64,000 nucleotides of DNA from contig NZ_LMEM01000016.1 in the NCBI RefSeq assembly GCF_001426345.1, forward strand, positions 664 to 64,663, in the 5' to 3' direction. Source of the DNA: Devosia sp. Root436 (GTDB taxonomy: Bacteria > Pseudomonadota > Alphaproteobacteria > Rhizobiales > Devosiaceae). The translations under genes were made by a program, and so were the position numbers. Shown here piece by piece: positions 21,182-44,730 of this stretch. The notes beneath the pieces are model-generated. The model made no database searches. It saw only the letters and a program-made list of their open reading frames with translations, and had not been told where the DNA came from. The first letter of the stretch is position 1. The number at the start of each line of letters is the position of its first letter.

Positions 21182-21194
21182 CGAGGATTCCACC

Positions 21195-25204: not shown

Positions 25205-25480
25205 TGCGACACGGCGACGTGAAAAACATCAAGAAGAGCGGGCCCCCCGAAACGGGGCACGCGCATATCTCGCCGAGTTGAGCAATCAATTGAGACGATC
25301 AAGGCCACCTAGCAGTGCACTGACAGCGCCAATTAGAAACGCCTTGCAATGCTGTACCGGCAATGCAGGGAGGCCCTGAGAACCGGACCTTGCCGGTTGT
25401 GCTTGGGCTGGCCTTGGTTGTGTGTTCCCCCGAAGTTCCTCATACTTGTCATCCGCAACAGAGTGCGCGAACGGGGCCGC

Positions 25481-27616: not shown

Positions 27617-29406
27617 CCTTTGTTTGGCCGAAAGGCGACCTGAATGACGAGCAGGTCGACGCCATAACTATCCCTGGCAATGTCTTCCTGACCGCCTGCC
27701 CCGGCAGCGGAAAGACGCGCGCCTTGACCTACAAGGCCGCGCTCGAACTATCGCGGCTGGCAACCACGAAGCAACGGGTCGTTGCGATCACCTACACCCA
27801 TCGGGCTGCGGAGGAGATTCATGAGCGGATCGAGGCCCTAGGCGTTGGAACCGAGCACCTGTGGATCGGGACCATTCATAGCTTTTGTATAGATTGGATC
27901 CTACGGCCTTACGCGATCTATCATCCAGCCCTTCGACACGGCTTTCGAGTGATTGACGCTCACGGGACCGAACGCCGCCTGGAGGAACATTGCCGCGCCT
28001 TGCGCAACGGGGTCAGGCCATTCGACTGCAGCTACAGCTACTCAACTCGGGGATGCGAACTGCGAGATACCCACGGGAGGTCGCAGCAGGCGGTTGGGAG
28101 TGTCCTCAACCGCTATTGGGCGGACCTAGAAGCGAAGCGCCAGATCGATTTCGAGATGATCCTGCAATTCGCCTACGAGCTGATCGCAACCGTGCCGTCG
28201 ATTGCCATCCTTCTAAGCCAACTGTTCCGCTTCATCCTGGTTGACGAGTATCAGGATACTAAGGAGATACAGTACGGCATCATCGCCCATGTGATGCGGG
28301 CGGGCGCCGGACGAACCAATGCCTTCCTTGTCGGCGACGCCAACCAAGCCATCTTTGGTTCGCTCGGTGGGTACGCGATCACTCGTGAGCAGTTCGCGCA
28401 GGACTGCCAGGCGCCGTTCACCCCGAAAAGCCTGTCCATCAACTATCGCTCCTCGACGCGCATCGTTGACTACTTCACGAACTACCATGTCATCCCAGCC
28501 GCGATCAGCGCGGAGGGCAAGAACCGATTGTTCGAAAGCGCGATCTCCTATGACCACACGACCCCGAGCCGGCAACTCGAAGATGAGCTTGTTCGACTGC
28601 TCCGGTACAACATCGAGACCGTCGGGATCTCTCCCCGGGAAGTCTGCGTCATTGCCCCTCAGTGGGTGGCCCTCGCCGATATCACCCGGAGGCTCGTGGT
28701 GGCCATGCCGGAGTACAGCTTTGACGGACCTGGAATCGCGCCCTTCGCCCGGAACATTGACAACTTCTTCTACAAGGTCGCGCGCCTGGCACTAACCGAG
28801 CCTTCACCCCAGCTCTTCGTTCGGCGCCTGCGATGGGCCGGTGACATCATGCTCGAACTTGAGCGGGCTGAGGTTCACCTTCGTGGGGTATCGCCCCGGG
28901 GCCTGCTTAGCATGTGCAATGCGATCGCGATCGACGAAGAGGATGGCCTCAACCACCTGAGGCTGTTCTTTGACGAGTTCTTGACGGGGCTAGGGATTGT
29001 CCTCGCTGATTACCCCGCACTTGCTAATCACCACGAGACGTTCTTTGGGGATTCCCAGGCACGAATTAACCGTCTCCAGGAAGACGGGCTTCAAGGAATC
29101 TCCGACATCGCGATGTTCCGTCGCGTGTTTGCGAGCCGTTCTGGCATAACCATTTCCAGCATCCACAATGTCAAAGGCGCGGAGTTCGACGTCGTGATTG
29201 CGTTTGCGCTCCTGCAAGGCATGGTGCCACACTTTGGTGACCTCCAGGTTGAGAGTGCCAAGAAGCTCCTCTATGTCATCTGCTCGCGGGCCCGGAAAAA
29301 TCTTCACCTGATCTCCGAAACCGGTCGCATGAATCGCGGCGGCCCATACCTACCGACCGAAGTCCTCGCAAGTTACGCTTTCAACTACGACGACGTTCCT
29401 GATTGA
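27613..29406 (+). CDS. UvrD/Rep-like helicase, GajB-like
   Basis: A 597-residue superfamily 1A helicase. Motif I ACPGSGKTRALTY is near residues 29-41, motif II LVDEYQDTKEIQ near 209-220, motif IV LSINYRSS near 274 and motif V SSIHNVKGAEFDVVIA near 514-529. It overlaps the OLD gene by ATGA and must be coexpressed with it. In Gabija, GajB is activated by DNA ends produced by GajA. It is somewhat longer than typical GajB (about 500), so it may belong to a different OLD-UvrD class. Its end overlaps that of the AddA-like gene by 22 bases, tail to tail. Confidence 0.9.
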   Translation: MTFVWPKGDLNDEQVDAITIPGNVFLTACPGSGKTRALTYKAALELSRLATTKQRVVAITYTHRAAEEIHERIEALGVGTEHLWIGTIHSFCIDWILRPYAIYHPALRHGFRVIDAHGTERRLEEHCRALRNGVRPFDCSYSYSTRGCELRDTHGRSQQAVGSVLNRYWADLEAKRQIDFEMILQFAYELIATVPSIAILLSQLFRFILVDEYQDTKEIQYGIIAHVMRAGAGRTNAFLVGDANQAIFGSLGGYAITREQFAQDCQAPFTPKSLSINYRSSTRIVDYFTNYHVIPAAISAEGKNRLFESAISYDHTTPSRQLEDELVRLLRYNIETVGISPREVCVIAPQWVALADITRRLVVAMPEYSFDGPGIAPFARNIDNFFYKVARLALTEPSPQLFVRRLRWAGDIMLELERAEVHLRGVSPRGLLSMCNAIAIDEEDGLNHLRLFFDEFLTGLGIVLADYPALANHHETFFGDSQARINRLQEDGLQGISDIAMFRRVFASRSGITISSIHNVKGAEFDVVIAFALLQGMVPHFGDLQVESAKKLLYVICSRARKNLHLISETGRMNRGGPYLPTEVLASYAFNYDDVPD

Positions 29407-32400
29407 ACAGCGATTTGATTTGCCGCCGCGCTCGAGGCTGCGTCCACGCTAGGAGCAGTAACCCAGACAACTTGGCCCGCAGACATGTAGACAAGCGCGC
29501 CCCTCGAGGCGCCCGTGACACGGAGATAGTCACGGAGTTGAGCCGCGTGGGCGCTGTGCATCAGGGACGTCGGCTTCACGTCCGACTTCCAATCGACCAC
29601 GACGGACATTCCATCGCCGTCCGTCGCTACAGCATCTGCACGGCCGGCGAGATAGCGCGGCGGTGCCGCGCTCCACAGAGGGAGCTCAGGGACGAGGCTT
29701 GCCAAGATGGGTTCGAGTTCTGGCAGTTGGTAGGTTCGCAGAGCCGTATGTGCCATCTCTCTTGCCTCGGGCAGAGCGGTCGACACTTCATCGGTAGCGA
29801 GCACGAGCTGCGTTAAGAGACCCGTTGCCCGTATCTCCGCCTCACCTTCGACGGGCGCCAGTTCCCCGGTGAGCAATTCCTCCATGAGCTTGTGAAGGAT
29901 CGTCCCCCGTAGTGAGCCAGCGCCTCGAATAGGCTGCACGTCACCAGAGGCAGCATCGATCACGAAGGCATCGGCAAGGTCGGCACTCCGATCTGCATCC
30001 CGCTCGCTCGGCCGATCCCAGGCAATCGGGGGGGAGGCAGCGTCGATGCGCTCACGCTCGCCGGCGAAAACAGATTCGGTCTGTTCGTTTTCGCCTTGTG
30101 ACTGCGGGGCGGAGGTCGGCTTCGGCAGCAGTTCCACCTGAATTTCGGGTAACGTCGCCTGTCCAAGATCCATCACGCGCGACCAGGAGCGCGCCGGAGC
30201 ACCCGGCAGCTCGGGAATAACCAAAAGATCGCGAGCGCGAGTAGTCGCAACGTACCATATCCGTTCGCGCTGTCGCCCCTCCCGCGTCTCCTCTTCCTCC
30301 CGCGCAGCCGCGAGATCCGGAGGCTCGACTCCTCCAACGATCCAATGCAGCGTTTGGTCGGACTGACGGTATACGAACTGATCTTGCGGTTTGAATCGCG
30401 TTGAAGAGTTGACGGGAATGACAACCGGCCATTCCAGCCCTTTCGCGCTGTGCATGGTCACGATCTCGACGGAATCGTCAGAGGCATCAACGCGTCCTTC
30501 TGGGTGCCGTCGTTTGCCTTCCCATCCACGTTGGAGGTCCAGCGCGAACGCCCGAAGTCCTGCCACGTCATAGGGTCGGGCAAGTTCGATGACGGCATCG
30601 AGGTTCGCTAGCGCACGCGCGTTGCGTTGCCCGTGCCGTGCTGCCATGACCACGCGGAGGTTCAGCCGTTCGATCGCGAAGGCGACGAGTTGCATGGGGG
30701 TTGCTTCGGCGGCGAGCCGGTAAAGTTTCTTCAGCTCGGTCAGAACGCTTCTGGCAACCGGATGCTGGACTTGTTCGATTGGCGTACGCAGTTGGAAACG
30801 GCGCCTTCCGTCCATGTCCGGCGAGAGCGCCGCGGTGATATCAAGGAGATCCTCGTCGCGCAGGCCAACCGTCGGCCCCCGCATGAGCGCGCCGAAAGCC
30901 AGCGTGTCCAACGGATCGGCCAGTGTGCGAACCAGCGCAAGGACGTCTTGGAGTTCTTGTCGTCGAAATAGAGCCTGCCCTGCTTGCGACGCCACCGAGA
31001 TGCGCCGGCTTTCCAGCGCGCGTTCGTATCGCCACAGATCGGTGTGCGTCGGCGCAAGCAGGGCGATATCCCCCGCTCGAAGAAGCCGTGTCTTCCCTCT
31101 TGGATCGGCGATGCTGAGCGCGCCAATCAACCGTGTGCACAAGGTGGCAACGGCTTCCGCCTCCGCTTCCCGTTGCTCCTCGGCAGACGCGTCGCGGGGG
31201 ACCTCCACCGTCAGTTTGGCGGCCGAGGGAAATGGTAACGGTGTGGGCTCCAGAGTCGCAGTCAGCGGCACAAAGCCCGGCTGGCCCTTCTTACCGAGGA
31301 CGTCGCGAAAAACCGTGTTGATGTGCGCGATGATTTCCGGCCGAGAACGGAAGTTTGCGGTGACCTCGAGCACGCACCCATTGGGCGCTCGCGCGATGAC
31401 GGACTTTGCCAGCGTGTAGGCTTCGATATCGGCACCGCGGAAACGGTAGATCGCCTGCTTCGGATCGCCCACGAGAAACAGCGCGCCGGGACGCAGGTTG
31501 GATTCACTCCACACTGTAGTGTGGGTCTCCGCCGCGAGGCAGAACACGATCTCAGCTTGAGTTGGGTCGGTGTCTTGGAACTCGTCCACTAAAAGGTGCG
31601 CGAAGCGCTTTGCGACTGACTCGCGAATGTCAGGATGCTCGCAGACGAGGATACGGGCTTCCCGGAGGAGATCATCAAAGTCGAGGACTGCGGCCTCACG
31701 TTTACGCTGGTCGTACGCGGCGACAACCTCGCCCAGTACGCTGGCAAGATCATGGACCAATCGCTGCGCGATCAGGCCCATCATCAAGCGGTATGCTGTG
31801 GCAACACGCTCAAAGAAGACAGCCGCCTCACGCGACCGTTGCGCTCCCTCGGCGGCCCCAATCGCACGCCGCCACGCTGCCCCGCGCTCGTACGGCAGAA
31901 GGTCAATGCTCGCGCGGCGCATGATTTCGTCGATACGTGGTGGCTGTGTCAGCCGCCACAGACCGGCAAACCCTGTTTGCTCGACACCGGTCACGAAGAA
32001 GGCGGCGAGACGCTCCAAAGAACTGATCAGGTCCCCTGTCCAGCTATCCCCCGGATGAGTGGCGTACCAGCGCGCGAACTCGGAGACGGCGTGCGCAAAT
32101 GACACTTCAGTACGGTCGTCGCCATCCGGGGCCGGCGCCGTGGCGTCAGGGTGTGCGCGCCGCAGGAAGGCAAGTTCACGGATGCGCTCAACGATCCTGA
32201 GGGGGTCATCCTTCGCGAGTACTGCGATCGGATCGTTGTCATCTGCATCGTGGTCGAGCTTCGCTTTCAACCAGTTGGCGAGAACCTCGTCGAACAATGC
32301 ATCGGCAATCGTCTGGTCGACCACTCGCGCGCCTGGATCCAGTCCCGCGTTAAGGCCATGCGAGCGGAGGATGCCTTGGCAGAAACCGTGGATCGTGGTG

Positions 32401-32747
32401 GCCGCAATTTCGCCGACACGCGCCGCTGCCGCGTCAAGGCAGTCGCGTTGTCGATCGCTCAGGGGAAAGCGGATGACACCCGAGAGAGCCGGCGGAAGGC
32501 GATCGGAACGGAGCTCATCGACCGTCCATCTGATGCGAGCCTCAAGCTCGCTTGCTGCCAGCTCTGTGAAGGTGATGGCCGCAATGGAGGCCGGATCGAT
32601 GCCACCAGCGAGCATCATCGCCACGCGGCCCGCCATCAGCGACGTCTTCCCCGTGCCAGCAGCAGCTTCGACAAGAATGTTGCTCTGGAAATCCGTTAAC
32701 GCGCGCATGCGCGCACCTAAGTCAGGCTTGGTCACGAACTCCCCCAT
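29385..32747 (-). CDS. AddA/RecB-like helicase-nuclease
   Basis: A 1,120-residue UvrD-type helicase fused to a C-terminal PD-(D/E)XK nuclease. Motif I is EAAAGTGKTSLMAG near residues 27-40, motif II LLVDEFQDTDPTQAEI near 392-407, and helicase motifs V-VI include EIVTMHSAKGLEWPVVIP. The nuclease shows LAGRADAVATDGDG and VVVDWKSD with D1052 and K1054. It overlaps the upstream AddB-like gene by 16 bases. Classical AddAB repairs double-strand breaks and degrades phage DNA; this island copy differs in size and setting and is probably defensive, which is inference. Confidence 0.88.
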   Translation of the reverse strand: MGEFVTKPDLGARMRALTDFQSNILVEAAAGTGKTSLMAGRVAMMLAGGIDPASIAAITFTELAASELEARIRWTVDELRSDRLPPALSGVIRFPLSDRQRDCLDAAAARVGEIAATTIHGFCQGILRSHGLNAGLDPGARVVDQTIADALFDEVLANWLKAKLDHDADDNDPIAVLAKDDPLRIVERIRELAFLRRAHPDATAPAPDGDDRTEVSFAHAVSEFARWYATHPGDSWTGDLISSLERLAAFFVTGVEQTGFAGLWRLTQPPRIDEIMRRASIDLLPYERGAAWRRAIGAAEGAQRSREAAVFFERVATAYRLMMGLIAQRLVHDLASVLGEVVAAYDQRKREAAVLDFDDLLREARILVCEHPDIRESVAKRFAHLLVDEFQDTDPTQAEIVFCLAAETHTTVWSESNLRPGALFLVGDPKQAIYRFRGADIEAYTLAKSVIARAPNGCVLEVTANFRSRPEIIAHINTVFRDVLGKKGQPGFVPLTATLEPTPLPFPSAAKLTVEVPRDASAEEQREAEAEAVATLCTRLIGALSIADPRGKTRLLRAGDIALLAPTHTDLWRYERALESRRISVASQAGQALFRRQELQDVLALVRTLADPLDTLAFGALMRGPTVGLRDEDLLDITAALSPDMDGRRRFQLRTPIEQVQHPVARSVLTELKKLYRLAAEATPMQLVAFAIERLNLRVVMAARHGQRNARALANLDAVIELARPYDVAGLRAFALDLQRGWEGKRRHPEGRVDASDDSVEIVTMHSAKGLEWPVVIPVNSSTRFKPQDQFVYRQSDQTLHWIVGGVEPPDLAAAREEEETREGRQRERIWYVATTRARDLLVIPELPGAPARSWSRVMDLGQATLPEIQVELLPKPTSAPQSQGENEQTESVFAGERERIDAASPPIAWDRPSERDADRSADLADAFVIDAASGDVQPIRGAGSLRGTILHKLMEELLTGELAPVEGEAEIRATGLLTQLVLATDEVSTALPEAREMAHTALRTYQLPELEPILASLVPELPLWSAAPPRYLAGRADAVATDGDGMSVVVDWKSDVKPTSLMHSAHAAQLRDYLRVTGASRGALVYMSAGQVVWVTAPSVDAASSAAANQIAVQSGTSS

Positions 32748-35374
32748 AGCTTGTCGAGAGGAGAGTTGACCTGGGCGAAGGCACGGCGCTTGATGCGTCG
32801 GTAGGCCTCGCCATCGGCCGGAAGCGCAATCGCGAGCGGGTCGAAGAACTCTCGCGGCGGCCCCGGCGCGATTGCCCCGACCTGCTGGAGCTCCGCCCCT
32901 GCCGCAGCAAACAAGATTGCTTGCTCCAGGGCCTTGTTGAGTTCCTCACCGGACAGGATCGCGGAACGTGCCGGATCGTCTTTCAAGTATGTGAGCCTCG
33001 AACTCACGTCGCGAACATCGGGGAGAAGCGCTCGAACGGCTAACGCGTAAAAGACGCGTTGAAGCTCCGCTCCTCGATCGAACACGACGGGCCGCTTTCT
33101 AGCTGGTGCCGAACCCACCTTGTAATCGGTGACAATTGCAGCACCCGTCGAGACTTCATGGTCGAGCCGGTCGATACGCCCACGAAAGACAAGCCCCGTC
33201 TCTCCAATCGGCACTGGCGCGAGAGTGTTCCACGGGTGCTCTCCACCTACGGCCTCGCCGAACGACAGTTCAGTCCAAGTTCTTCCTCCCGCTTCACCGA
33301 AACTGTCGATGAGGGCCCGAAACGCTCGTTCGCGAGCAACGTCCATCGTATGGTGCCAAAGGACATGCGGAGGGGCGGGGCGAACGATTGGCCACTCTTG
33401 GATCAGCTTGTCAGCTTCGCGCATCAGCGCGTTGTTGAGAGCGTCCTGGTCTCTAGGCGTGCCTTCACGGAGGACCCCGCTGATCAGCGCATGAACGAGC
33501 TCACCAAAGGCCCGCGGGTGAAGCGACAGCGGTTCGGCATCCATACCCGCCTCACGCCAGAACAGCGCATGCTCCCAGACGAAACCCAGGGGATCGCAAA
33601 GAAGACGCTGCAGCGAAGTCGTCGATTGAACAGCGGTGAGTGCCTCTACGAGGAGAGGATGGTTGCTACGGACTCGCCCATCGTGCGCAGTGTGACGCTC
33701 ACCGTCCTGCCAGGCGTTCCAACAGACCCGGCTCGATCGCACCTGCGCGTTCTTCCCGGCGTCCGCGGGTCGCGCATACAGGCGATCGCTCTCGCTAAAC
33801 GCGTGGGCAGGAATCATACTTCGGCCAACCAAACGCTCCCGATCACGTCGCCAGAGCGAACTTGGCGCCTGTATCGAGCCCGCGGCGCTTCGATGGTTTC
33901 GCGAGAGAGCGTGCCCTTCCGACTGACTGATGATGATGTTGTAGTTCAACAGGTCATTATCCGCGACCGCTGAAGACGGCAGCCGCAGATCGCCGAGAAG
34001 GTGATCAGGCAGCAGCGGGTCTTCACTCGCTGGCCTCGGCCAAGCGTTTGCGGCAAGACCAATGAGACGGACATAGCGGCGAGGAGCAGCAGCGACATGC
34101 CTCGCAGGGGCCCAGGCGATGGAATTGCCAGGATCGCGACCGTCGTCGACGCGAAGCGCTCGAAGGGACAACTCGATGGCTTGCACCGGCGCCATCTGCA
34201 CAGCGTCCTGCCACAACGCCAGCGTCGGACCACTCAGCAACCGGTCGCCGATGGACTCCGCAGAGGAAATTCCTATTGCGAGTTCATCCAGAATGGGAAG
34301 CAACACCTGTTCAGCGATATTGCCGCCAGCGCGTTGGGTCCGTGCCTCTTCGAGGGCATGACGCCAGCGCTCCGGAGAGGTGAGTGCAGCGTTTCGACGG
34401 ATCCCTTTGGCCCAATCGTCTGGGATGCGATATTTTGCCGATGAGTTAGGAAGCCGGACAAAGAGCAAACGCACCCGCTCCTGCGTCAGGCCGCGCAAAA
34501 GGATGTCGGCAAGCGCAGCGCAAGTCTGACCCTCGCGGGTAGCGAGCGCCGGAACGCCATGGGTAAAATGTACGGGCAGAGTTGCTTCCCGTGAAAGAAC
34601 GAGAAACGCGTCGTCCCAAGCCCCAGGCGAAGCCGCAACGACGGCAATCTCATGGGGCGCAGCCACCCCCCTTGCGACGAGGTCGCGCGCCCAACGCAGC
34701 GCCTCTCTGGCTTCGCTCCGCGGATCGGCGCACACGTCGGCCGTCAAGATGGAACTAACCTTGCGCTCGCGGGCCTTGATCGATCCCGTAAACCAGAACC
34801 CACGGCCCTCGGGCGGCAAAATCCATTGTACTGGTACGACGTCGCATAGCGCCAGGATCAGGGGGCGCCAGACAGGATGAACATCGACGATGTCCCGAAG
34901 CGTGACGGGCCCAAGCACCTTGGGTGCGAAGGTCAGCCGCTTGAGTGCGGCCGCCACAAGATCGGAGGGAGCAAGCTTTCCTGGTGGTAGGGCATCGCGG
35001 ACGTGACGTTCTAGAAGGACAAAATCTCTGAGGCGAGAGTTATGGGGGTGGACTTGCGAGTGACCGGCGGCCCACCAGTCCCGCAGGGAAGCCAGTACCG
35101 CAGCCGGCATCCCGGGTAACTCAGCAACGTGGGCGATGTCCTCGAATTTCTCGTTCGCCAGGACCTGCCGGATTGCCGGATAGAGCGCGTCGTGTGTCGC
35201 GGGCGTAATGAAACCTCCCGCGAGGCGTGCTGCCAATAGAGGGAGCGTCAGGATTTGACGACCAATTGCGCCCTCTCGAGCGGCATCGAGCCTCCGCATC
35301 CTCAGCGCAAGCGGACCCTCGACTACCACCGTGTTAATCAGCACAAGACCCTCCCGTTCTCCCGATCCTTCCAT
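32732..35374 (-). CDS. AddB-like protein with PD-(D/E)XK nuclease domain
   Basis: An 880-residue partner of the AddA-like protein. The N-terminal part resembles an inactivated helicase. The C-terminal nuclease core reads FRGRIDRLDHEVSTGAAIV then TDYKVGS, with Asp and the D-x-K motif. The iron-sulphur cysteines that clamp classical AddB are not evident; I see only one Cys near the domain start (CDPLGFVWEHALF). The start near 35374 is uncertain; the homologous region begins close to VLINTVVVEGP. It heads a two-gene minus-strand operon and is divergent from the reverse transcriptase gene. Confidence 0.8.
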   Translation of the reverse strand: MEGSGEREGLVLINTVVVEGPLALRMRRLDAAREGAIGRQILTLPLLAARLAGGFITPATHDALYPAIRQVLANEKFEDIAHVAELPGMPAAVLASLRDWWAAGHSQVHPHNSRLRDFVLLERHVRDALPPGKLAPSDLVAAALKRLTFAPKVLGPVTLRDIVDVHPVWRPLILALCDVVPVQWILPPEGRGFWFTGSIKARERKVSSILTADVCADPRSEAREALRWARDLVARGVAAPHEIAVVAASPGAWDDAFLVLSREATLPVHFTHGVPALATREGQTCAALADILLRGLTQERVRLLFVRLPNSSAKYRIPDDWAKGIRRNAALTSPERWRHALEEARTQRAGGNIAEQVLLPILDELAIGISSAESIGDRLLSGPTLALWQDAVQMAPVQAIELSLRALRVDDGRDPGNSIAWAPARHVAAAPRRYVRLIGLAANAWPRPASEDPLLPDHLLGDLRLPSSAVADNDLLNYNIIISQSEGHALSRNHRSAAGSIQAPSSLWRRDRERLVGRSMIPAHAFSESDRLYARPADAGKNAQVRSSRVCWNAWQDGERHTAHDGRVRSNHPLLVEALTAVQSTTSLQRLLCDPLGFVWEHALFWREAGMDAEPLSLHPRAFGELVHALISGVLREGTPRDQDALNNALMREADKLIQEWPIVRPAPPHVLWHHTMDVARERAFRALIDSFGEAGGRTWTELSFGEAVGGEHPWNTLAPVPIGETGLVFRGRIDRLDHEVSTGAAIVTDYKVGSAPARKRPVVFDRGAELQRVFYALAVRALLPDVRDVSSRLTYLKDDPARSAILSGEELNKALEQAILFAAAGAELQQVGAIAPGPPREFFDPLAIALPADGEAYRRIKRRAFAQVNSPLDKLWGSS

Positions 35375-35550
35375 CTACCAAGATACTCAACCGCCTGGTG
35401 GCGGAGCTCCAGAGCCTCATCGTTTTCGGGTTCACCGAACTCTAGTGAGTCCCGTTGTACTGATAGCGACGGCTTGACTCGATGGGATATACCCCCAACG
35501 TCATCCCGTCCTTTTTGCTTTTGGAGTCTACTCGTGAGCGCCATCCGCCG

Positions 35551-37260
35551 ATGAGCAAGAGCAAAAATCCCAAAGCGAGGCATGTGCGGTTGCTGTCCAG
35601 CGGCTTCTTTCCGCCCGAGATGCCTGATTGCTTCTACAGCGAGCGTCTCGGACGCAAGCGGGAGCCGATCCTCAAGTCGTTTGATCAAATACCCTCGAAG
35701 AAGAATGGCCCTCCGCACTTTCATCTGCTTAAGGGTGAGCGCGCGATCTTTAGCTTCCCTCGGTTCGGTCGGGAGGATCGCCGTCACTCCTATATCAACC
35801 CAATCTCGTACTTCTACCTGTCGAAGGTCTTGGCCGAGAACTACGTCAGCATACGCAAGCTCAATAGGCGCTCGAGAATGTCCGTCGCGCCCACTATATT
35901 CGATTGGGCCGGCGAGCGAGCGCTGATCCGCCCAGCATTCGATGCACGGGACTCGCAACATGTCACCCTCAACGCCGGATTCGAGTTTCTCGCCGAAGGC
36001 GATATCGCGGCCTTCTTCCATTCGATCTATACCCACGTAATTCCGTGGGCGGTCCACGGTAAGGCCGTTGCGAAACGGCGGAAGCAGGACTTTGGGCTCT
36101 ACGGCAACGTCCTGGATCTTCTTGTGCGCAACGCTCAAGATGGGCAGACCATCGGACTACCAGTCGGTCCGGACACATCGCGTCTCATCGCCGAACTTAT
36201 TGGAACGGCTATCGACAAGTCGATCCAGACTTCGCTCAAAGGGAAGCGAAAGTGGAGTGCTCGCGAGCGCGGTGCGATGCGCTTCGTGGATGACTACGTC
36301 TTTGGCTGCTCGTCACATCAAGAGGCGGAGATCGTCTTGGCCACGCTCAGGCGGTGCGCCAACGATTTTGAACTCGAGTTGAACAACTCCAAAACACGCA
36401 TCTCACCCACGGGCCCGTTTTTCGCTGCAGCGTGGAAAGAACACGTGAGGGGTCTTCTCCCAGCCATCGGTTCGGACAAGGGCAGCCTACTTCGGTACTT
36501 CTATGGAATAGAGGCAGCGGTTCGGGCGCACCCGGAGGCAAACGTCGCAAAGTTCGCACTTCAGAACGCCCGGAGACTTTTCCTCGAGACCCACGATTGG
36601 CCCCTGGTCGAGGACTATCTTCTGTCCAGTTACCGGCAAAATGCCGCGGTTCTTCCGACGGTGGTCGAGATACTGATCTTGCGACACCTCGACCGAAAAG
36701 ACGTCGCCATCGAGCGCATCAGCTCCTTTGTCTCCGCCCGATTTGCAGCACTGGCCCTTCTGCAAAAGCGGGGAGAAGTCTGCTGGCTCCTCTATCTCTG
36801 CATTTGCCTTCAGACATCGATTCGAAGCGCGGCAATCGCCGAACTGTTCGCAGCCGAGGACAGCGCCGTTGCTATCCTGATAGCCGACGCCAAGCGGCTC
36901 GGCTTAGTACAAGGCGCGATCGATCAACGCACCTGGGACGCCAGCCTGACTAAGGAGGGCCTGCGCAGTTCAATGTGGCTCTATTCATACGAGAGCGCGC
37001 TGAAGGGCCTGAACGCGGCCGGGACCACGGCCCACGTCACATCGGACCCATACTTTGGCCCCCTGCTCGCCCAGGATGTTGAGTTCTACCGATCGGGTTC
37101 GTCCCATTTGAATCGAGGCACGTTTCTCTTGAGGTTGCGCCTTGAGCGGGTACGTCAGCAGCTGCAGCAAGCAGCGGTTCAGGAGGACCTTGCCGACGAG
37201 TTCGTTGATTTCGAGGATGCGAGCGAAGGCGAGCCAGACGGTGCATTTGACTTCTATTGA
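35551..37260 (+). CDS. Defence-associated (UG/Abi-like) reverse transcriptase
   Basis: A 569-residue RT. Motif A is AEGDIAAFFHSIYTH with D151, motif B GLPVGPDTSRLIAEL near 202-216, and motif C RFVDDYVFG with D247 and D248, followed by motif D ELNNSKTRI. The IYTH after motif A, FVDDY in motif C and a long helical C-terminus of about 270 residues without thumb, maturase or endonuclease motifs set it apart from group II intron and retron RTs and place it with the unknown-group/DRT and AbiA/AbiK-type antiphage RTs. The exact class is undecided. ATG 35551 is preferred over 35482. No RNA partner is evident. Confidence 0.85.
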   Translation: MSKSKNPKARHVRLLSSGFFPPEMPDCFYSERLGRKREPILKSFDQIPSKKNGPPHFHLLKGERAIFSFPRFGREDRRHSYINPISYFYLSKVLAENYVSIRKLNRRSRMSVAPTIFDWAGERALIRPAFDARDSQHVTLNAGFEFLAEGDIAAFFHSIYTHVIPWAVHGKAVAKRRKQDFGLYGNVLDLLVRNAQDGQTIGLPVGPDTSRLIAELIGTAIDKSIQTSLKGKRKWSARERGAMRFVDDYVFGCSSHQEAEIVLATLRRCANDFELELNNSKTRISPTGPFFAAAWKEHVRGLLPAIGSDKGSLLRYFYGIEAAVRAHPEANVAKFALQNARRLFLETHDWPLVEDYLLSSYRQNAAVLPTVVEILILRHLDRKDVAIERISSFVSARFAALALLQKRGEVCWLLYLCICLQTSIRSAAIAELFAAEDSAVAILIADAKRLGLVQGAIDQRTWDASLTKEGLRSSMWLYSYESALKGLNAAGTTAHVTSDPYFGPLLAQDVEFYRSGSSHLNRGTFLLRLRLERVRQQLQQAAVQEDLADEFVDFEDASEGEPDGAFDFY

Positions 37261-37562
37261 TGTCTACAGACCTCGCAAAACCAAGCTGGAACGTTCCGCC
37301 TGCCCCAACCAGAGTTGTCCAGTCCCGTCGACGGATCGTGACATCACCTGCCTTCGGAGCTGCCAGAGCTAGACGTGCCATGGCGAAGAAGCGACGCCTC
37401 TCTGATCGAACGGTATGGTCTGGCGAGCTTGGTTCAGCGCAGCTGAGTATGACGGGATATTCGAGCGTGCAAACACAAGACTCGCGCGATAGGGTCATGA
37501 AAAACAAGCTGTTTCCGCCAATCCTGATGAGTCGCGCATGTCCGACAGCCTGGCCGACCTGA
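37260..37562 (+). CDS. Possible small basic protein coupled to the reverse transcriptase
   Basis: A 100-codon frame whose ATG overlaps the RT stop as TGATG, a typical coupling signal, and whose end overlaps the start of mod by 25 bases. It is rich in Arg/Lys (for example QSRRRIVTS and RARRAMAKKRRLS). I know no family for it. The gap between RT and mod would otherwise be 277 unexplained bases, so a short protein or an RNA gene is plausible. Codon use gives no decisive support. Confidence 0.35.
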   Translation: MSTDLAKPSWNVPPAPTRVVQSRRRIVTSPAFGAARARRAMAKKRRLSDRTVWSGELGSAQLSMTGYSSVQTQDSRDRVMKNKLFPPILMSRACPTAWPT

Positions 37563-40500
37563 TCCTGACGTTGACACCCGAAGACGGGTCATCCATCGGC
37601 AATGGTGCAATGTTGGCCCTGCTGCGCGAGCACATGCCGAGCTTGTCGGAGAATGACTATGTCGGCGCGCGCGATCTTCTACTAGACGAAGGTATCCTCG
37701 GCCGAGGGCGCGGGCGCGGTGGATCAATATTCCGGATCGTCGAACAGGCGTTGGATGAAAATGAGGATGGTGCGGAAGATTTGGATGGCGACGAGGACGG
37801 GTTCGAGCTGATCCCCACCGTGGAATCCATATCAACGCAAAAGACGAAATCCACGAAAAAGAGCGCTCGTAGGTCTGGAGAACCAATCCAGGTGCTCAGC
37901 TACCGACATCGCGAGATGCGGGTAAACAATCCAGAGGTCGGGATGGTCCATGCTGGGACGGACCCTGACGGCGACAAGACTGCGTGGGCATATGACCCGC
38001 ATCTGGACCCCGTACTAAACTTCGACAGCGCTCGCAGAGGGATCGAAAAGCTGATCGACGACGCGCTATCCAGTGAAGACCCGCAGCGCATGAAGGACGC
38101 TCTGACCGAGCTCAAGCGGCTTCAGCAGCCGTATCTCAACTGGACGGGCAAAGCTGAGCGGACGTCTCTCGAAATAGACACTGTCTCCCTTCATGTCCAT
38201 GAGCGGGTCGACCCCGCGACGATCCTGGCCAACGCGGCCAAACGGCTGAAGGGCAAGGACGCGGGCACGCAATGGCGGCAGCCGGACCTCTTCGCTGCGC
38301 CATTCGAGAACCTTCCGCTGCGGCAAGCACTCGATTTCTACAGCCATGAGAAAGGCTGGTCGAATCGCTTGGTGGCGGGCGACAGCCTGCTGGTGATGAA
38401 CTCGCTCCTGACCAAGGAGAGCATGGCGGGAAAGGTGCAGATGATCTACATCGACCCGCCCTATGGCATCAAGTATGGGTCGAACTTCCAGCCATTTACA
38501 AACAAGCGCGACGTCAAGGATCGGTCAGATGCGGACCTGACCCAGGAACCCGAAATGATTAAGGCGTTCCGGGACACTTGGGAGCTGGGCATCCACTCCT
38601 ACCTCACCTATTTGCGCGATCGTTTGATGCTGGCGAGAGACTTGCTCCACGAGAGCGGGTCGGTGTTCGTACAGATTTCCGACGACAATGTGCATCATGT
38701 CCGCGAAATCCTGGACGAGATTTTTGGCGGAGCGAACTTCATATCTGAGATTGCCTTCCGCACGACGTCCAGTTTGGGCGGTGACTTCATTGGCAAAAGC
38801 TTTGACTATTTGCTGTGGTATGGGCGCGAAAAGGCCAAGACCAAATCTCACGACCTTTTTTCATCCCGAGGGATCGAAGATGATGTTGGCGGTCGGTACA
38901 CCCGATGTGAGCTCCCAGGCTTCTTCCGGCGACCAATGTCAAAGGCTGAGAAGTCCAATCCCGAGGCGTTGCCCCAGGGCGCAAGGGTATATCGGCACGA
39001 CAACTTAAAATCGCAAAGCGGGTCGGAAGCAGCTGAATTTCCCATTGCTCATCAAGGAATGGAGTTCAGACCTGGAAAAGGCTTCTGGAAGAGTAACCCA
39101 ACCGGCATCGTAAGGCTGGATCGCGCATGGCGTTTGGCTGCGCCCACACCCGATTCAGTCAACTATGTTCGGTTCATAGACGACTTTCCGTTTGTCGGTC
39201 TTTCCAATGTCTGGGGGGATACGCAAACTGGAGCGTTTACCGCAAGCAAGGACTACGTCGTTCAGACCAACACAAAAGTCCTCGAACGCTGCCTCCTTAT
39301 GACCACCGATCCCGGCGACCTAGTGCTCGACCCGACCTGCGGCTCGGGTACCACTGCCTTCGTTGCCGAGAAATGGGGGCGCCGCTGGGTCACGTGCGAC
39401 ACCTCCCGCGTCGCCATTACATTGGCTAAGCAACGGCTGATGACCGCGAGTTTCGACTATTACGCGCTGCGTTACCCGCATGAGGGTCTGAAGGGCGGCT
39501 TCGACTACGAAACAGTGCCGCACATCACCCTGAAGAGCATTGCCAACAACCCAGACATCGACTCGATCTACGACGAGGTTCACCCAAAGATTCAAGCGTC
39601 GTTGGTATCCCTGAACTCTGCTCTGACAAACGCGCCCGTGGCATCCTTCAAGCCCAGCCAAGGTGTGCGCAAGGGCCAAGTCGTCAGTTTCCGCAACGGC
39701 GGCGCTTTGCAAGAATGGGAAGTGCCGTTCGACTGGCCCGAGACGTGGCCCCAAACCGCGCGCGCGGACTTCGATGCCTTCCACACTGCCCGTCAAACCA
39801 AGCAGCGCCGCATAGACCAATCCATCGCCGACCATGCCGAGCCGGAAACGCTCTACGACAAGCCTCGCATTGATAAGAATCGCCTGCGGATTACCGGTCC
39901 GTTCTCGGTAGAGGCGGTACCGGCGGCAACGGTCCTGTCACTCGACGATAGCCTCCCCCTCGCCGAGGCGGACGACAGTGTTGCCCGGTCGGGAGAGACC
40001 TCGCGCCAATCCCTTTGGCGCGATGAGCTCTTGAAGACCGGCGTCCGCGGCAAGGGCGGCGCAATGCTCACTTTCGCGGAATTCGAGACCCTGCCGGGCC
40101 TGAAATTCATACATGGGAGCGGCTCACTGGCCGAGACGGGCGAACGGGTCGTCGTTAGCTTTGGCCCAGAGCATGCGGCTCTGGAACAGCGCCAGGTCGA
40201 ACTAGCTCTCTCTGAAGCAGAAACTTTGCGTCCGGCGCCAAAGTACATCCTGTTCTGTGCTTTTGCCTTCGATCCAGAGGCGGCCAAAGACATAGATGAG
40301 GTGAACTGGCCTGGTGTGACCCTACTCAAGGCCCAGATGAACACCGACCTTTTAACCGAAGATCTAAAAAAGGCGCGGTCATCCAACCAATCCTTCTGGC
40401 TGATGGGCCAGCCCGATGTAGAGCTGCGAAAACTTGACGACGGGATGTGGGAGGTCGAGGTCAATGGCTTCGACTATTTCGATCCCAAGGTCGGCGACCT

Positions 40501-40783
40501 CGTGTCCGGCGGCAAGAAACAGATCGCTATGTGGTCGCTTGACGTCGATTATGACCAGCGATCACTCATGCCACACCAGGTTTTCTTCCCAATGGCTGAC
40601 GCCAAGGGTGGTTGGAACCGACTGAGGGCAACGGTGCGCTCCGAACTCGACGATAACTTGTTGGAGCAGTTCCACGGAACGGTGTCGCTGCCCTTCCCGG
40701 CAGGTGACAACCGGCGGATTGCGGTGAAAATCGTTGATGATCGGGGGATCGAATCCCTCAAGATCATGCCGCTTGAGGACTGA
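37538..40783 (+). CDS. Type III-like DNA adenine methyltransferase (Mod)
   Basis: A 1,081-residue beta-class N6-adenine methyltransferase: the catalytic motif YIDPPYGIKYG near residues 302-312 comes before the AdoMet motif VLDPTCGSGTTAF near 595-607. Residues 1-70 form a winged-helix-like domain ending GRGRGRGGSIFR, and an acidic linker follows. The region between the motifs would hold the target-recognition part. It is followed four bases after its stop by the helicase-nuclease Res gene. It protects host DNA and, with Res, forms the restriction complex. It is longer than typical Mod (about 650), so the C-terminal 400 residues are an uncommon extension. Confidence 0.9.
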   Translation: MSDSLADLILTLTPEDGSSIGNGAMLALLREHMPSLSENDYVGARDLLLDEGILGRGRGRGGSIFRIVEQALDENEDGAEDLDGDEDGFELIPTVESISTQKTKSTKKSARRSGEPIQVLSYRHREMRVNNPEVGMVHAGTDPDGDKTAWAYDPHLDPVLNFDSARRGIEKLIDDALSSEDPQRMKDALTELKRLQQPYLNWTGKAERTSLEIDTVSLHVHERVDPATILANAAKRLKGKDAGTQWRQPDLFAAPFENLPLRQALDFYSHEKGWSNRLVAGDSLLVMNSLLTKESMAGKVQMIYIDPPYGIKYGSNFQPFTNKRDVKDRSDADLTQEPEMIKAFRDTWELGIHSYLTYLRDRLMLARDLLHESGSVFVQISDDNVHHVREILDEIFGGANFISEIAFRTTSSLGGDFIGKSFDYLLWYGREKAKTKSHDLFSSRGIEDDVGGRYTRCELPGFFRRPMSKAEKSNPEALPQGARVYRHDNLKSQSGSEAAEFPIAHQGMEFRPGKGFWKSNPTGIVRLDRAWRLAAPTPDSVNYVRFIDDFPFVGLSNVWGDTQTGAFTASKDYVVQTNTKVLERCLLMTTDPGDLVLDPTCGSGTTAFVAEKWGRRWVTCDTSRVAITLAKQRLMTASFDYYALRYPHEGLKGGFDYETVPHITLKSIANNPDIDSIYDEVHPKIQASLVSLNSALTNAPVASFKPSQGVRKGQVVSFRNGGALQEWEVPFDWPETWPQTARADFDAFHTARQTKQRRIDQSIADHAEPETLYDKPRIDKNRLRITGPFSVEAVPAATVLSLDDSLPLAEADDSVARSGETSRQSLWRDELLKTGVRGKGGAMLTFAEFETLPGLKFIHGSGSLAETGERVVVSFGPEHAALEQRQVELALSEAETLRPAPKYILFCAFAFDPEAAKDIDEVNWPGVTLLKAQMNTDLLTEDLKKARSSNQSFWLMGQPDVELRKLDDGMWEVEVNGFDYFDPKVGDLVSGGKKQIAMWSLDVDYDQRSLMPHQVFFPMADAKGGWNRLRATVRSELDDNLLEQFHGTVSLPFPAGDNRRIAVKIVDDRGIESLKIMPLED

Positions 40784-40787
40784 GCCC

Positions 40788-43580
40788 ATGTCCCTCATCA
40801 TCAATACACCGTTCGTCTGCCCGGCCCAGCATTGGGTCGAAGGCAAGGGCGGCAAGCTCGAGATCAAGCCAGAGCGTCGCCCGGCGAGCTACGAAGTCTT
40901 CGACGCCCGCAACAACACAAAGCGCACCGAGGTGCTGGGTCTCGTAAATACGATTCGGACACGCGTCGATGCTTGGCGCGAGGCTGGTTGGCCCGGCGTA
41001 ACAATTGTCACCCGCAAGCTGCTGGAACATTGGCATGACCGCGACGCGCGGCAGCATCCGTTCTACTTCTGCCAACTCGAGGCGATCGAGACCCTGATCT
41101 GGTGGGTCGAAGGGACCGAGGCCTTCAGACAGGGTATCTCGATCCCCGGCGACGGCGGGACCTGGGAACGGCTCTGCAACAAGATGGCGACGGGTGCCGG
41201 CAAGACAACGGTGATGGCGATGATCATCACCTGGCAGGTGCTGAACGCGCTGACCTACCCGAAGCGGAACAAGGATTTCAGCCGCGCCGTGTTCATCGTG
41301 GCGCCCGGCCTAACAGTGAAAGAACGCCTGCAAGTGCTGCTGCCCAGCGAAGGCAGCTACTACGATGAGTTCAATCTCTGCCCCTCGGAGGCCCTGAGGC
41401 AGAAACTGAACCAGGCCGAAGTGTTGATTGAAAACTGGCACACACTGATGCCGCTTAAGGAACAGGAGCGGTCCGTGGTGAAGAAGGGCCGGGAGTCGGA
41501 CGAGGCGTTCACACGCCGCGTTCTGGGCAAGCTGGCCGCGCACAAGGATATCACCGTCATCAACGACGAGGCACATCATGCCTACCGCAAACCGCCCGAG
41601 GTGAAGATCAGCAAGAAGCAGGCGGCTGAACAGGGGATCGATCTCGACGAGGCGACGCGCTGGATCGACGGGCTAGACCGTATCCACAAAACACGGCGCA
41701 TTCAGCGCTGCTTCGACCTTTCGGCCACGCCCTTTGCCCCGACCGGCAAAAAGAGCACGGATACGGCGCTGTTCGACTGGATCATCTCCGATTTCGGGCT
41801 AAACGATGCGATCGAGGCCGGGCTGGTCAAGACGCCGCGCGTCGTGGTTCGGGACGATGCCCTGCCAGACGCCCGGACGCTGCGGTCAAAACTCTATCAC
41901 ATCTACCGAGATCCATCGGTGTCCGAGGATCTGAACAGGGCCAAGGCCGAGCCGCACGAGGCGCTGCCGAAACTGGTGCAGGACGCCTATACGCTTCTCG
42001 GCGCCGACTGGCGCGAGACGCAGAGGCAGTGGCGAGATGCCGGGCATCATACCCCGCCGGTGATGCTGACGGTCTGCAACCGCACCGAGACGGCCGCGCG
42101 GGTCGAGCACTATTTCAACAAGGGCGACTCGCATTGGCCCGAGCTGCACGCCCCGAACAAGACGTTGCGCGTTGATTCAAAAGTGCTTGAGAAGGCGGAG
42201 ATCGGCGAAGCCGCCACATCCGACAAGGACTATGAGGCCAGGCTGAAGAGCATCATCGAGGCGACGAACCTACCGGAGACCCGAAAGCAGCAGCTTCTCG
42301 ACATGAAGAAGGAAGCGCTGCTTCGGGAGATCGTGGATAATGTCGGCAAGCGCGGGGCAGCGGGCCAAGACCTGCAGAACGTCATCTCCGTCGCAATGTT
42401 GTCCGAGGGCTGGGATGCCAAGAACGTAACCCACATCATGGGTTTACGCGCGTTCACCTCGCAGTTGCTGTGTGAGCAGGTCGTCGGCCGTGGGCTGCGC
42501 AGGGTTTCCTACGACACCGATGAGAATGGTCTATTCCTGCCGGAGTATGTGAACGTCTTTGGGGTTCCGCTGTCCATTTCCGAGACGGGAGAAAGTGGGG
42601 ACGCGCCTCCGCCTCCCAGGCCAACCACTCAGATTGAAGTCATCCCTGAAAGGGCACACTTGGAAACAAAGTGGCCCAACGTGTTGCGCATCGAAACGGT
42701 GGTGAAGCCTCAGTTAGCCATCGCATGGGACGAGGTACCAGCCTTGGTGCTTGACCCAGCCTCGACCCCCATCAGCGCCGAACTGGCGCCCGCCCTGGGT
42801 GGTGCAACGGACATGGGCATGGTCACCGCGATCGATCTCGAACGCCTTCCGGATGGCTTCCGGCTGCAGAGATTGATCTTTCAGGCCGCCCGCAAGGGCT
42901 TTGCTGAACTGCGCCACAGCTTCTCGGGAACGGAAGAGTATCTTGCCGCGCAATTGGTTCGCATAGTCGAGCACTTCCTGAAGTCAAAGTTGCTGGATAT
43001 TCCGTCGCTCTTCCATTCCGACCCTCTTCGTCGACGGATCCTCATCGCATTGAACATCGATCTCATTGTTCAACATGTCATGCGCTACGTCAGCGAGCAC
43101 AATACGGAGCGCCTCACGCCGGTCTTCGATGAAGAAAACCCAATAGGGGCTACCGGTCAAATGCGCACCTGGTACACGACCAAACCGTGTTTTCCGGCGA
43201 TCAAGTCGCACATCAGCCACCTCGTTGGCGATTCCTCATGGGAAGGTCACGCGGCGAATGTCTTCGAGAGCCGTGACGATGTCGTAGCCTATGCCAAAAA
43301 CGATCATCTGGGCTTCCAGATTCAGTACATGTGGGCCGGTTCGCGTCGCCGATACGTGCCGGATTTCCTTGTACGACTGTCGAGCGGCAAGATGCTCGCG
43401 CTCGAAATCAAAGGAACGGATAGCCCGCAGAACAAGGCCAAGCGCGACGCACTGGGCGAATGGGTGGCGGCAGTCAATGGGGCCGGCGGTTTTGGCCAAT
43501 GGGCCTGGGACGTCGCCTTCAAGCCCGGCGAGCTGCAGGACATTGTCTCTAAGCACGCCAATTCTGTCACGGTTGCTTAA
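40788..43580 (+). CDS. Type III-like restriction enzyme Res (helicase + nuclease)
   Basis: A 930-residue superfamily 2 helicase. Walker A is NKMATGAGKTTVM near residues 131-143, the DEAH-type box TVINDEAHHAY near 255-265, motif III DLSATPF near 306 and motif VI QVVGRGLRR near 563. The C-terminal nuclease reads RRYVPDFLVRLSSGKM then LALEIKG, a complete PD...ExK. It would translocate on or cleave unmodified DNA together with Mod. The start 40788 follows the mod stop by four bases. The pair resembles the Mod/Res restriction systems common in island regions. Confidence 0.9.
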   Translation: MSLIINTPFVCPAQHWVEGKGGKLEIKPERRPASYEVFDARNNTKRTEVLGLVNTIRTRVDAWREAGWPGVTIVTRKLLEHWHDRDARQHPFYFCQLEAIETLIWWVEGTEAFRQGISIPGDGGTWERLCNKMATGAGKTTVMAMIITWQVLNALTYPKRNKDFSRAVFIVAPGLTVKERLQVLLPSEGSYYDEFNLCPSEALRQKLNQAEVLIENWHTLMPLKEQERSVVKKGRESDEAFTRRVLGKLAAHKDITVINDEAHHAYRKPPEVKISKKQAAEQGIDLDEATRWIDGLDRIHKTRRIQRCFDLSATPFAPTGKKSTDTALFDWIISDFGLNDAIEAGLVKTPRVVVRDDALPDARTLRSKLYHIYRDPSVSEDLNRAKAEPHEALPKLVQDAYTLLGADWRETQRQWRDAGHHTPPVMLTVCNRTETAARVEHYFNKGDSHWPELHAPNKTLRVDSKVLEKAEIGEAATSDKDYEARLKSIIEATNLPETRKQQLLDMKKEALLREIVDNVGKRGAAGQDLQNVISVAMLSEGWDAKNVTHIMGLRAFTSQLLCEQVVGRGLRRVSYDTDENGLFLPEYVNVFGVPLSISETGESGDAPPPPRPTTQIEVIPERAHLETKWPNVLRIETVVKPQLAIAWDEVPALVLDPASTPISAELAPALGGATDMGMVTAIDLERLPDGFRLQRLIFQAARKGFAELRHSFSGTEEYLAAQLVRIVEHFLKSKLLDIPSLFHSDPLRRRILIALNIDLIVQHVMRYVSEHNTERLTPVFDEENPIGATGQMRTWYTTKPCFPAIKSHISHLVGDSSWEGHAANVFESRDDVVAYAKNDHLGFQIQYMWAGSRRRYVPDFLVRLSSGKMLALEIKGTDSPQNKAKRDALGEWVAAVNGAGGFGQWAWDVAFKPGELQDIVSKHANSVTVA

Positions 43581-43650: not shown

Positions 43651-44730
43651 TCATTTCACCAGACGCAAATTTCCCCTTCGGGGAGTTGTCAAAGCATTTG
43701 GCGTTGATGGCACGCCCACAGTCACAAGGCCGAAAAGAAGTTTCACAGCTTCTGATTCAGGAACTGACAGGATAGCCGAAATTCGCTCCAGACCGGCGCC
43801 GTTCTGACGGAGATCGTCAAGGACCTTCTTCCACACCTGCGACTGCTCACGGCGCATCGGCGTTGGTTCATCCGTTCGCCAACCCCGCCGAGAAATCTCC
43901 ATAAACAACTGCTGATAGGTCCATTTCGACACCAAACCCAGCTCATGAAGCCGATAGGTCATTGCCGCCACCGAAACCGACCACGCTCGCTTAAGTTCGA
44001 CAACTTTCGGCAGGCCGGTGATGCGGCCAACCGCCCGTAGAGGAGCTTCTGGCATAAGGAAGGCGGCGGCGAACTCGTTTGCTTGCTTTTCGGCCTCAAG
44101 ACCATTTGGCGCCGCGTGCTTATGCAGGACGAGATGCCCCAACTCATGAGCAGCGTCGAAACGGCTTCGCTCGGCAGACTTTTGCGAATTGAGAAATGCG
44201 TAAGGTCTCTGTCCGCGCCAGACTGAAAAGGCGTCAACCTCCTTTCCATCCTCGCCTAAGGAAAAGACGCGAACACCCTTCAACTCCAGAAGATGAACCA
44301 TGTTCTTGATGGGCCGGTTGCCAATGCCCCAAAAATCGCGAAGGCCAGCCGCAGCGCTTTGAGGGGTATCCTCTCGCATATCGGGTACAACGGAGGCGGG
44401 CAGATCAAACTCGCTGTCCAACCAATCAGACATCAAGAACGCGATTGCCCCTGCGGCGATCGCCCCGTCTCGCTGGCGCGCCGTCATTTTGCTCATCGAT
44501 CGGAAGCTGACACCTTCGGCCCGCGGAATATCCACGTCGTCAGACAGAAAAAAGGAAAGCGGAAACCCCAAGGTGCGAGCAAGCTTCTTGGCGACATCAT
44601 CGCTGGGAAGATACTCGCCAGCTTCATAGCCCGTGACCGTACGTGGCTCGATACCTGTCTTTGCAGCGAGCTCCTTCATCGTCAGCCCGGCACGCTGACG
44701 AGCCACGGTAAGCCGTGATCGATTAAACAT
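43651..44730 (-). CDS. XRE-HTH / ImmA-IrrE family metallopeptidase
   Basis: A 359-residue fusion. Residues 5-60 are an XRE HTH (LTVARQRAGLTMKELAAKTG, with RTVTGYEAGEY). The zinc peptidase core is FDAAHELGHLVLH with H195, E196 and H199. Such proteins cleave a repressor to derepress a mobile element or defence genes. The upstream partner gene at 44730 overlaps by one base (TAATG). A palindromic site lies before the operon, possibly the target of this HTH. Confidence 0.9.
   Translation of the reverse strand: MFNRSRLTVARQRAGLTMKELAAKTGIEPRTVTGYEAGEYLPSDDVAKKLARTLGFPLSFFLSDDVDIPRAEGVSFRSMSKMTARQRDGAIAAGAIAFLMSDWLDSEFDLPASVVPDMREDTPQSAAAGLRDFWGIGNRPIKNMVHLLELKGVRVFSLGEDGKEVDAFSVWRGQRPYAFLNSQKSAERSRFDAAHELGHLVLHKHAAPNGLEAEKQANEFAAAFLMPEAPLRAVGRITGLPKVVELKRAWSVSVAAMTYRLHELGLVSKWTYQQLFMEISRRGWRTDEPTPMRREQSQVWKKVLDDLRQNGAGLERISAILSVPESEAVKLLFGLVTVGVPSTPNALTTPRRGNLRLVK

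Follow-up and report, generated by a model that had tools for sequence, protein, structure and literature searches.

A DRT6-family reverse transcriptase, very probably a single-gene system, with a clade-wide tyrosine at the end of its acidic tail

We analysed a reverse transcriptase (RT) gene in a 64,000-nucleotide stretch of Devosia sp. Root436 (contig NZ_LMEM01000016.1, positions 664 to 64,663, forward strand; hereafter the window, whose numbering we use). The RT is almost certainly a member of the DRT6 (UG12) family. It is also very probably a single-gene system, without a conserved partner protein or non-coding RNA (ncRNA) in its flanks. A preliminary description of this DNA had proposed a two-part system, with the partner encoded just downstream of the RT. 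We resolve it as a one-gene DRT6, and as an example of telling a real partner from a chance open reading frame (ORF) at a module junction. Our data directly support the family, the fold, the catalytic residues, the lack of a conserved partner beside the gene and the conservation of a tyrosine in the C-terminal tail. DRT6 is known as an antiphage type; what is new here is that this tyrosine stands at the end of an acidic tail throughout the clade of the RT. It provides a single-residue, testable prediction for how DRT6 starts DNA synthesis.

Family and architecture of the reverse transcriptase

We found that the closest match to the RT was DRT6 by profile, by sequence and by fold. The best PADLOC profile was Drt6 (PDLC03748; 2.9e-153, 509.5 bits, profile positions 3-483 of 511). 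Drt4 was second (374.6 bits), and UG30, UG14, Drt3b and AbiK also ranked behind Drt6. The best PDB chain by sequence was 9wy8 (228.5 bits), from an entry titled 'Cryo-EM structure of the hexameric DRT6'. The same chain was ranked first by Foldseek and by VIA-align (Z 41.2, root-mean-square deviation 1.9 Å over 490 residues, 31% identity). Other VIA-align Z scores against the RT model were 30.9 for DRT4, 24.3 for AbiK, 21.2 for Abi-P2 and 15.5 for the best group II intron RT. No Drt6 model was among the NCBIfam matches of the RT. All 75 proteins in our alignment of relatives (below) matched both the Drt6 and the Drt4 profile at 1e-20 or better, so the border between the two families is graded; the window RT is clearly closer to Drt6 than to Drt4.

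The gene and its parts are as follows.

35551 to 37260, + strand: DRT6 (UG12) RT of 569 amino acids, very probably the whole functional unit (PADLOC Drt6, structure match to 9wy8, tree of 75 rows)
35998 to 36036, + strand: motif A, GDIAAFFHSIYTH, with catalytic D151 (D151, Y160, T161 and H162 invariant in the 75 rows)
36145 to 36183, + strand: motif B region, QTIGLPVGPDTSR (Q199, G202, G206, P207 and S210 invariant in the 75 rows)
36283 to 36297, + strand: motif C, FVDDY, with catalytic D247 and D248 (D247 invariant, D248 in at least 90% of the 75 rows)
36430 to 37203, + strand: C-terminal alpha-helical domain, residues 294-551 (AlphaFold2 secondary structure)

The catalytic residues D151, D247 and D248 are all intact, and D151 of motif A is followed by ...FFHSIYTH. 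An in-frame ATG also occurs at 35482 in the ORF list. We preferred 35551 as the start because the chosen starts of two relatives, L013 and L014, align with this position in the clade alignment. The AlphaFold2 model, of a monomer and built from 75 homologues, had a mean predicted local distance difference test score (pLDDT) of 92.3 over the whole protein. The preliminary description had noted, within 35551-37562, an RT with motifs A (IYTH after D151), B and C (FVDDY) and a long helical C-terminus; we confirmed the ORF at 35551-37260 and the motifs, and the model confirmed the helical C-terminus.

Other RT families were tried and rejected. DRT4 (UG15) gave 172.3 bits with NCBIfam NF041749 (cut-off 450), retron RTs gave 24.1 bits with NF038233 (cut-off 235), and group II intron RTs gave 38.6 bits with TIGR04416 (cut-off 300); for the last two, Rfam also gave no match in the window at gathering scores. 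The RT is thus neither a group II intron RT nor a retron RT, both profiles being far under cut-off. The NCBIfam Drt3b model also scored far below its cut-off. The earlier reading of the gene as a defence-type RT of the UG/Abi kind holds, and the Drt6 profile and the 9wy8 fold make it specifically DRT6.

Relatives were collected from GTDB genomes, where a scan gave 225 and the 80 best were used, and from a scan of viral contigs, which added 31 loci; the 8 that matched over most of the query were used. Labels such as L013 and L129 denote homologue loci fetched for comparison. From the 88 loci L013-L100, four (L028, L037, L056 and L080) were dropped for in-frame stops in the matched stretch. The remaining 84 and the window RT made 85 proteins, which were reduced to 75 rows at less than 90% identity. 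Partial, distant matches (L101-L123) were left out of the tree, and L004 and L008-L012, relatives from genome searches, are outside the 75-row set.

In the maximum-likelihood tree the window RT groups with L013 (Bradyrhizobium, 74% identical) and L014 (a Rhodospirillaceae metagenome-assembled genome (MAG), 70-71%), inside a clade of 21 rows with support 100/100. One of these rows is a viral contig; the named hosts are alphaproteobacteria, which we take from general knowledge of where their families belong. When 376 genomes of the class were searched for clade members at E 1e-120, only the window's own RT was found. The corresponding search of viral contigs returned one known clade member and one known relative outside the clade, and nothing further.

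The 120442-base contig C12 of G036, a genome of the same genus, carries two identical DRT6 copies at mirror positions (L003 and L007; L044 and L045). Such mirror symmetry suggests a palindromic contig, a linear plasmid whose ends are inverted, or an artefact of assembly.

Sequences flanking the reverse transcriptase gene

We found that the sequences beside the RT gene are not conserved along with it. The window was compared with L013 and L014, whose RTs are 70-74% identical to its own. Local alignment scores were 20 and 18 for the 400 bases downstream and 16 and 16 for the 400 bases upstream, and none was above shuffles. We also took the 92 pairs of RTs with identities of 60-90%. Scores above 40 were reached in 2/92 over the 300 bases downstream and in 12/92 over the 300 bases upstream. 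A 300-base piece of the RT gene, the control, did so in 87/92. The bases downstream, which the preliminary description had offered for comparison across relatives, are therefore not conserved with the RT. Scores exceeded the best of 20 shuffles in 11/92 pairs downstream, 21/92 upstream and 92/92 in the RT body, with about 4 expected by chance. The shuffles preserved simple composition, and the pairs are not phylogenetically independent. These local-score tests carry the argument; forcing the downstream segments into alignment from end to end gave scattered matches only.

The pairs that beat shuffles (11 downstream, 21 upstream) do weigh against a single-gene reading, as a few lineages share flanks. 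Nine of the 12 upstream-conserved pairs are at RT identities of at least 80%, and the other three are one lineage (L090, L091 and L098). Because a partner should be conserved beside the RT in close relatives, and is not, we consider a partner not to be part of the unit. In two reviews, DRT6 is presented as a single RT related to DRT4 (PMC13213688, PMC13314766).

In L090, L091 and L098, sequence upstream of the RT is conserved at RT identities of just 67-74%, unlike in most others. It is perhaps an upstream gene or RNA.

The segment downstream of the RT and the genes that follow it are these.

37260 to 37562, + strand: 100-codon ORF, judged not a gene (codon score -0.095; no convincing relative)
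37261 to 37458, no strand: non-conserved junction between the RT unit and a restriction-modification unit (local scores against the two closest RT homologues do not exceed shuffles)
37459 to 37537, + strand: 5' leader of the type III mod gene (common to L129, upstream of a 75%-identical mod)
37538 to 40783, + strand: type III methyltransferase (mod), a neighbour and separate unit (PADLOC MTase_III, 4.2e-185)
40734 to 43580, + strand: BPTD_3080-family restriction endonuclease (res), a separate unit (NCBIfam NF046055, 1147.9 bits, cut-off 800)

The preliminary description took as partner either the 100-codon ORF, coupled to the RT by a TGATG overlap, or an RNA in 37260-37537. The overlap and the open frame are real. 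The RT stop is at 37258-37260 and the ATG at 37260-37262, and the frame runs without a stop for 100 codons, to 37562, entering mod by 25 bases. TGATG also occurs at the RT stop in clade members L013 and L021. All of this favours a protein partner made from the small ORF. In L014, however, the stop is TAG, without an overlap, and neither L013 nor L014 has local similarity above shuffles after the stop. The length of the ORF is not above chance: a hand count gives 25 further ORFs of 100 codons or more within 30000-43000, besides five large genes.

The small ORF also does not look like a gene by its codons. It scored -0.095 bits per codon, and all six frames of the downstream segment were below zero. 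For comparison, 79 true-frame pieces of 100 codons, cut from the RT and neighbouring genes, ranged from 0.12 to 0.42 (5-95%). Most of these pieces come from the 13 neighbouring genes used to train the codon model, which inflates their scores somewhat; the RT, kept out of training, scored 0.248. Among 60 other genomes of the genus the small ORF had one match only (34% identity, E 7e-4), with two internal stops. It had none in viral contigs, in a search aimed at close relatives only, and none in three profile libraries. We therefore rejected the ORF as a gene on codon score, lack of convincing relatives and lack of conservation, and give a negligible probability to its product being a partner that the RT needs.

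Part of the segment appears to belong to mod. In L129, another genome with a mod 75% identical to that of the window, the region that matches the window in BLAST starts at 37459, which is 79 bases ahead of the start of mod. Within a 46-base block (37460-37505), 40 bases are identical between the two. Neither L129 nor the 12 kb preceding its mod contains an RT match. Because this leader recurs before the L129 mod with no RT upstream, we assign 37459-37537 to mod. The 46-base block may be a regulatory leader conserved in this type III system. On sequence comparison, 37261-37458 reads as the junction of two independently moving units, and the proposed ORF or RNA as an accident of that RT/mod junction.

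A structured RNA from a flank could still be needed by the RT, as in DRT2, DRT3a, DRT9 and DRT10; ncRNA templates are used by other UG RTs (PMC13213688, PMC12483538, PMC12632851). The 176 bases upstream of the RT fold somewhat better than shuffles (z -1.60, 16/200 as good), and there are the 12/92 pairs with upstream scores above 40. However, the window's own two pairs scored 16-20 on both flanks, below shuffles, and the 12 pairs are the nine close ones and the single lineage given above. As RNA, the downstream segment is no more stably folded than its shuffles (z +1.36, 185/200 as good), and Rfam gave no match at gathering scores for the whole window. Scans of 35200-37700 for promoter-like and terminator-like sequences found no more than in shuffles, and repeats there were short and unremarkable. 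Among relatives, DRT4 and AbiK are described as working without a template (PMC13213688, PMC9508834). A downstream RNA was rejected on its lack of conservation, its folding and the lack of an Rfam match, and we regard dependence on any flank RNA as highly improbable.

The acidic tail and a candidate priming residue

We found a tyrosine at or next to the very end of the RT throughout its clade. Two features of the RT gene are in question.

37204 to 37257, + strand: disordered acidic C-terminal tail, residues 552-569, ending ...AFDFY (pLDDT <50)
37255 to 37257, + strand: Tyr569, candidate priming residue (Tyr in the last two residues of 21/21 clade members)

The RT model ends with a long helix (residues 522-551), followed by residues 551-569 at pLDDT below 50. 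Tyr is the last residue in 19/21 clade rows and the penultimate residue in the other two (YV and YF). UG RTs primed from the C-terminus, as DRT3b, DRT9 and DRT10 are, would be expected to carry a conserved hydroxyl residue at or close to that end, and 21/21 members of this clade have one. The preceding 28 positions in the 21 rows hold 292 acidic residues, 63 Phe and 8 Tyr among 588 residues. Because the tail is Phe-rich and Tyr-poor, the terminal Tyr is not simply sampled from its composition. It seems, from these counts, that the hydroxyl, and not merely an aromatic ring, is under selection at the C-terminus of the clade.

Ends of proteins outside the clade rows were also read. The plasmid homologues L146-L149, used as a held-out check, all end in Tyr; their tails hardly differ from that of L023 and so contribute little evidence of their own. 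Among relatives outside the 75 rows, L008, L009 and L011 end in Phe, L010 ends in Tyr, and L004 and L012 end in neither. In the solved DRT6, 9wy8, the chain has 495 residues and its end aligns with window residue 517, so the acidic tail present in its sequence is apparently not resolved.

How the chain might be started is suggested by related RTs. AbiK makes untemplated DNA primed by its own Tyr44, near the N-terminus (PMC9508834), and AbiA makes untemplated DNA primed by Tyr298/Tyr303, in a loop (PMC11077055). DRT3b makes a protein-templated repeat from Y666 in a C-terminal tail (residues 622-667), and its Y666F variant loses both the adduct and defence (PMC13174585). DRT9 uses tyrosines of its C-terminal tail as primers (PMC12483538), and DRT10 has a C-terminal primer, S456 or Y444 (PMC12632851). 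According to reviews, DRT4 makes random single-stranded DNA that is shielded from exonuclease by the phage protein ORF55, and DRT6 is an antiphage relative of DRT4 that is likewise activated by ORF55; they regard the product or mechanism of DRT6 as less well understood than the DRT4 one (PMC13213688, PMC13314766).

By analogy with these relatives, the RT would assemble as a hexamer and make single-stranded DNA without a nucleic acid template. The DNA chain would be started on a hydroxyl of the RT itself, for which the likeliest primer in this clade is Tyr569. The acidic, disordered tail could swing Tyr569 into the active site and then remain attached to the DNA. During infection, a phage DNA-binding protein of the ORF55 type would act as trigger by stabilising this DNA, and the stabilised DNA may then be toxic, or may sequester factors that the phage needs. 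We infer the hexamer, untemplated synthesis, trigger, toxicity and priming by Tyr569 from relatives throughout. As one joint claim, DRT6 identity, a single gene and DRT4-like action are together probable. For priming of DNA synthesis by Tyr569 we put the chances at about even.

Several observations weigh against this reading. Outside the clade just 13/54 rows end in Tyr; these include Gly-rich tails (GGGGGGSSY and GGGAGGY). Tyr occurs within the last 25 residues in 39/54 of the outside rows (72%), compared with 59% of 25-residue pieces of the protein body, and 15/54 have no Tyr there. A terminal Tyr is thus no DRT6 rule, and its strict form appears to be specific to the clade. The solved DRT6, 9wy8, carries its tail Tyr internally (EYFD). 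The 21 clade members are related, and 21/21 therefore does not count independent events. The tail had a pLDDT below 50 both in the 75-row model and in an AlphaFold2 model built from the clade only, and is not placed in either. The primer position is not fixed among relatives, being N-terminal in AbiK and in a loop in AbiA. Finally, membership of DRT6 in class 1 is our own inference, as the main texts of PMC12632851 and PMC13174585 are without the term 'DRT6'.

The tail might instead do something other than prime. An acidic tail with a terminal aromatic residue could mimic the tip of single-stranded DNA-binding protein (SSB), docking or blocking host exonucleases or helicases on the DNA made by the RT. 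Many DRT6 rows do end in an aromatic or hydrophobic residue on a strongly acidic tail. An acidic-acidic-x-P-hydrophobic tip occurs in 4/75 rows (L074, L085, L094 and L100), and L008, outside the 75 rows, ends in EEPF. In the window clade, however, the terminal residue is Tyr in 19/21 rows, and the lone row ending in Phe has a Tyr before it, despite the Phe-rich tail. None of the four SSB-like rows is in this clade. We consider an SSB mimic without priming unlikely for the window RT.

The SSB-like tails themselves (L094 DDDDLPF, L100 EEAPL, L074 WDDIPL and L085 DDIPI) fall in two separate parts of the tree. They resemble the C-terminal tip of SSB.

Returning to priming by the tail tyrosine, DRT6 of this clade may prime from the very last residue, each subunit then bearing a long C-terminal single-stranded DNA, and elsewhere in DRT6 the tail would have been re-tooled (an internal Tyr, a Gly-rich tip with Tyr, or SSB-like tips). 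We hold this wider reading tentatively, at slightly less than even chances. If true, the tail would be a module that evolves fast and determines which primer is used and how stable the product is.

The surrounding island and comparison with known systems

Judged by gene content, the RT lies inside a dense, mosaic defence island (window 20982-45383). Besides the RT, mod and res, it holds these features and a HipA-like gene, listed between the integrase and Gabija.

20982 to 22265: integrase
25349 to 27616: GajA (Gabija)
27613 to 29406: GajB (Gabija)
29385 to 35374, - strand: AddA/RecB-like helicase (UvrD helicase and PD-(D/E)XK) and AddB-like PD-(D/E)XK protein, in overlapping genes
43651 to 45383: RmrA/RmrT-like genes

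The AddAB-like pair is far under the curated cut-offs (TIGR02784, 241.6 of 860.75 bits; TIGR03623, 28.2 of 299.6 bits) and is possibly a defence version of AddAB. A tblastn search at 1e-5 over the fetched homologue loci with the AddB-like protein matched the window's own locus only.

Some of these neighbours recur beside related RTs, and the RT might be a working part of a larger composite with Gabija or with the type III restriction-modification genes. L146-L149, from Rhizobium, Agrobacterium and Sinorhizobium plasmids, have the order GajA-GajB-RT with the RT 15 bases behind GajB. L023 and L034 have the same order, and L030 has RT-GajA-GajB. L072 (9986-17821, a Chloroflexota MAG) has RT, mod and res in that order, its mod and res being 50% and 52% identical to those of the window. 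Yet both Gabija genes stand beside only 3/20 other clade members (L023, L030 and L034), two of them of one lineage; several loci end at contig ends, and the count leaves out weaker single GajA- or GajB-like matches in L016, L022, L038, L050 and L066. Within the DNA compared, res and mod stand beside the RT in L072 only, among the 88 loci L013-L100, and mod and res are also found where no RT is matched. In the window itself, 6 kb and two opposite-strand genes separate Gabija from the RT. We rejected a fixed Gabija-RT system (3/20 other clade members and the four plasmid copies) and a fixed RT and type III restriction-modification system, and think a composite quite improbable. The Gabija and type III genes look like recurring island neighbours of the RT and not fixed parts.

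As a single-gene DRT6, the RT can be compared with four kinds of known system. It is most like DRT6/UG12 (9wy8), with which it shares the fold over its whole length, the catalytic motifs, the single gene and an acidic C-terminal tail. The tail Tyr of 9wy8 is internal (EYFD) and is followed by a further acidic run, whereas in the window RT it is the last residue; the window RT also belongs to an alphaproteobacterial clade. DRT4/UG15 (9vdo, 9l9s) has a similar fold (Z 28-31) and is a single gene according to the review PMC13213688. It differs at the C-terminus: L124, the only DRT4-like homologue fetched (419 bits, itself below the cut-off), ends in DSL without an acidic tail.

AbiK and Abi-P2 (7r07, 7r08) share the palm and fingers and a helical domain that replaces the thumb, but are only about 16% identical to the window RT, and the AbiK primer, Tyr44, is in an N-terminal loop (PMC9508834). 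DRT3b (9z6y) resembles the window RT in its RT-like domain, its helical repeat and its C-terminal tail with a conserved near-terminal tyrosine; L125, the sole Drt3b homologue fetched, also ends in Tyr. DRT3b acts with DRT3a and an ncRNA, whereas the window RT has no adjoining second RT, nor a conserved ncRNA found in its flanks.

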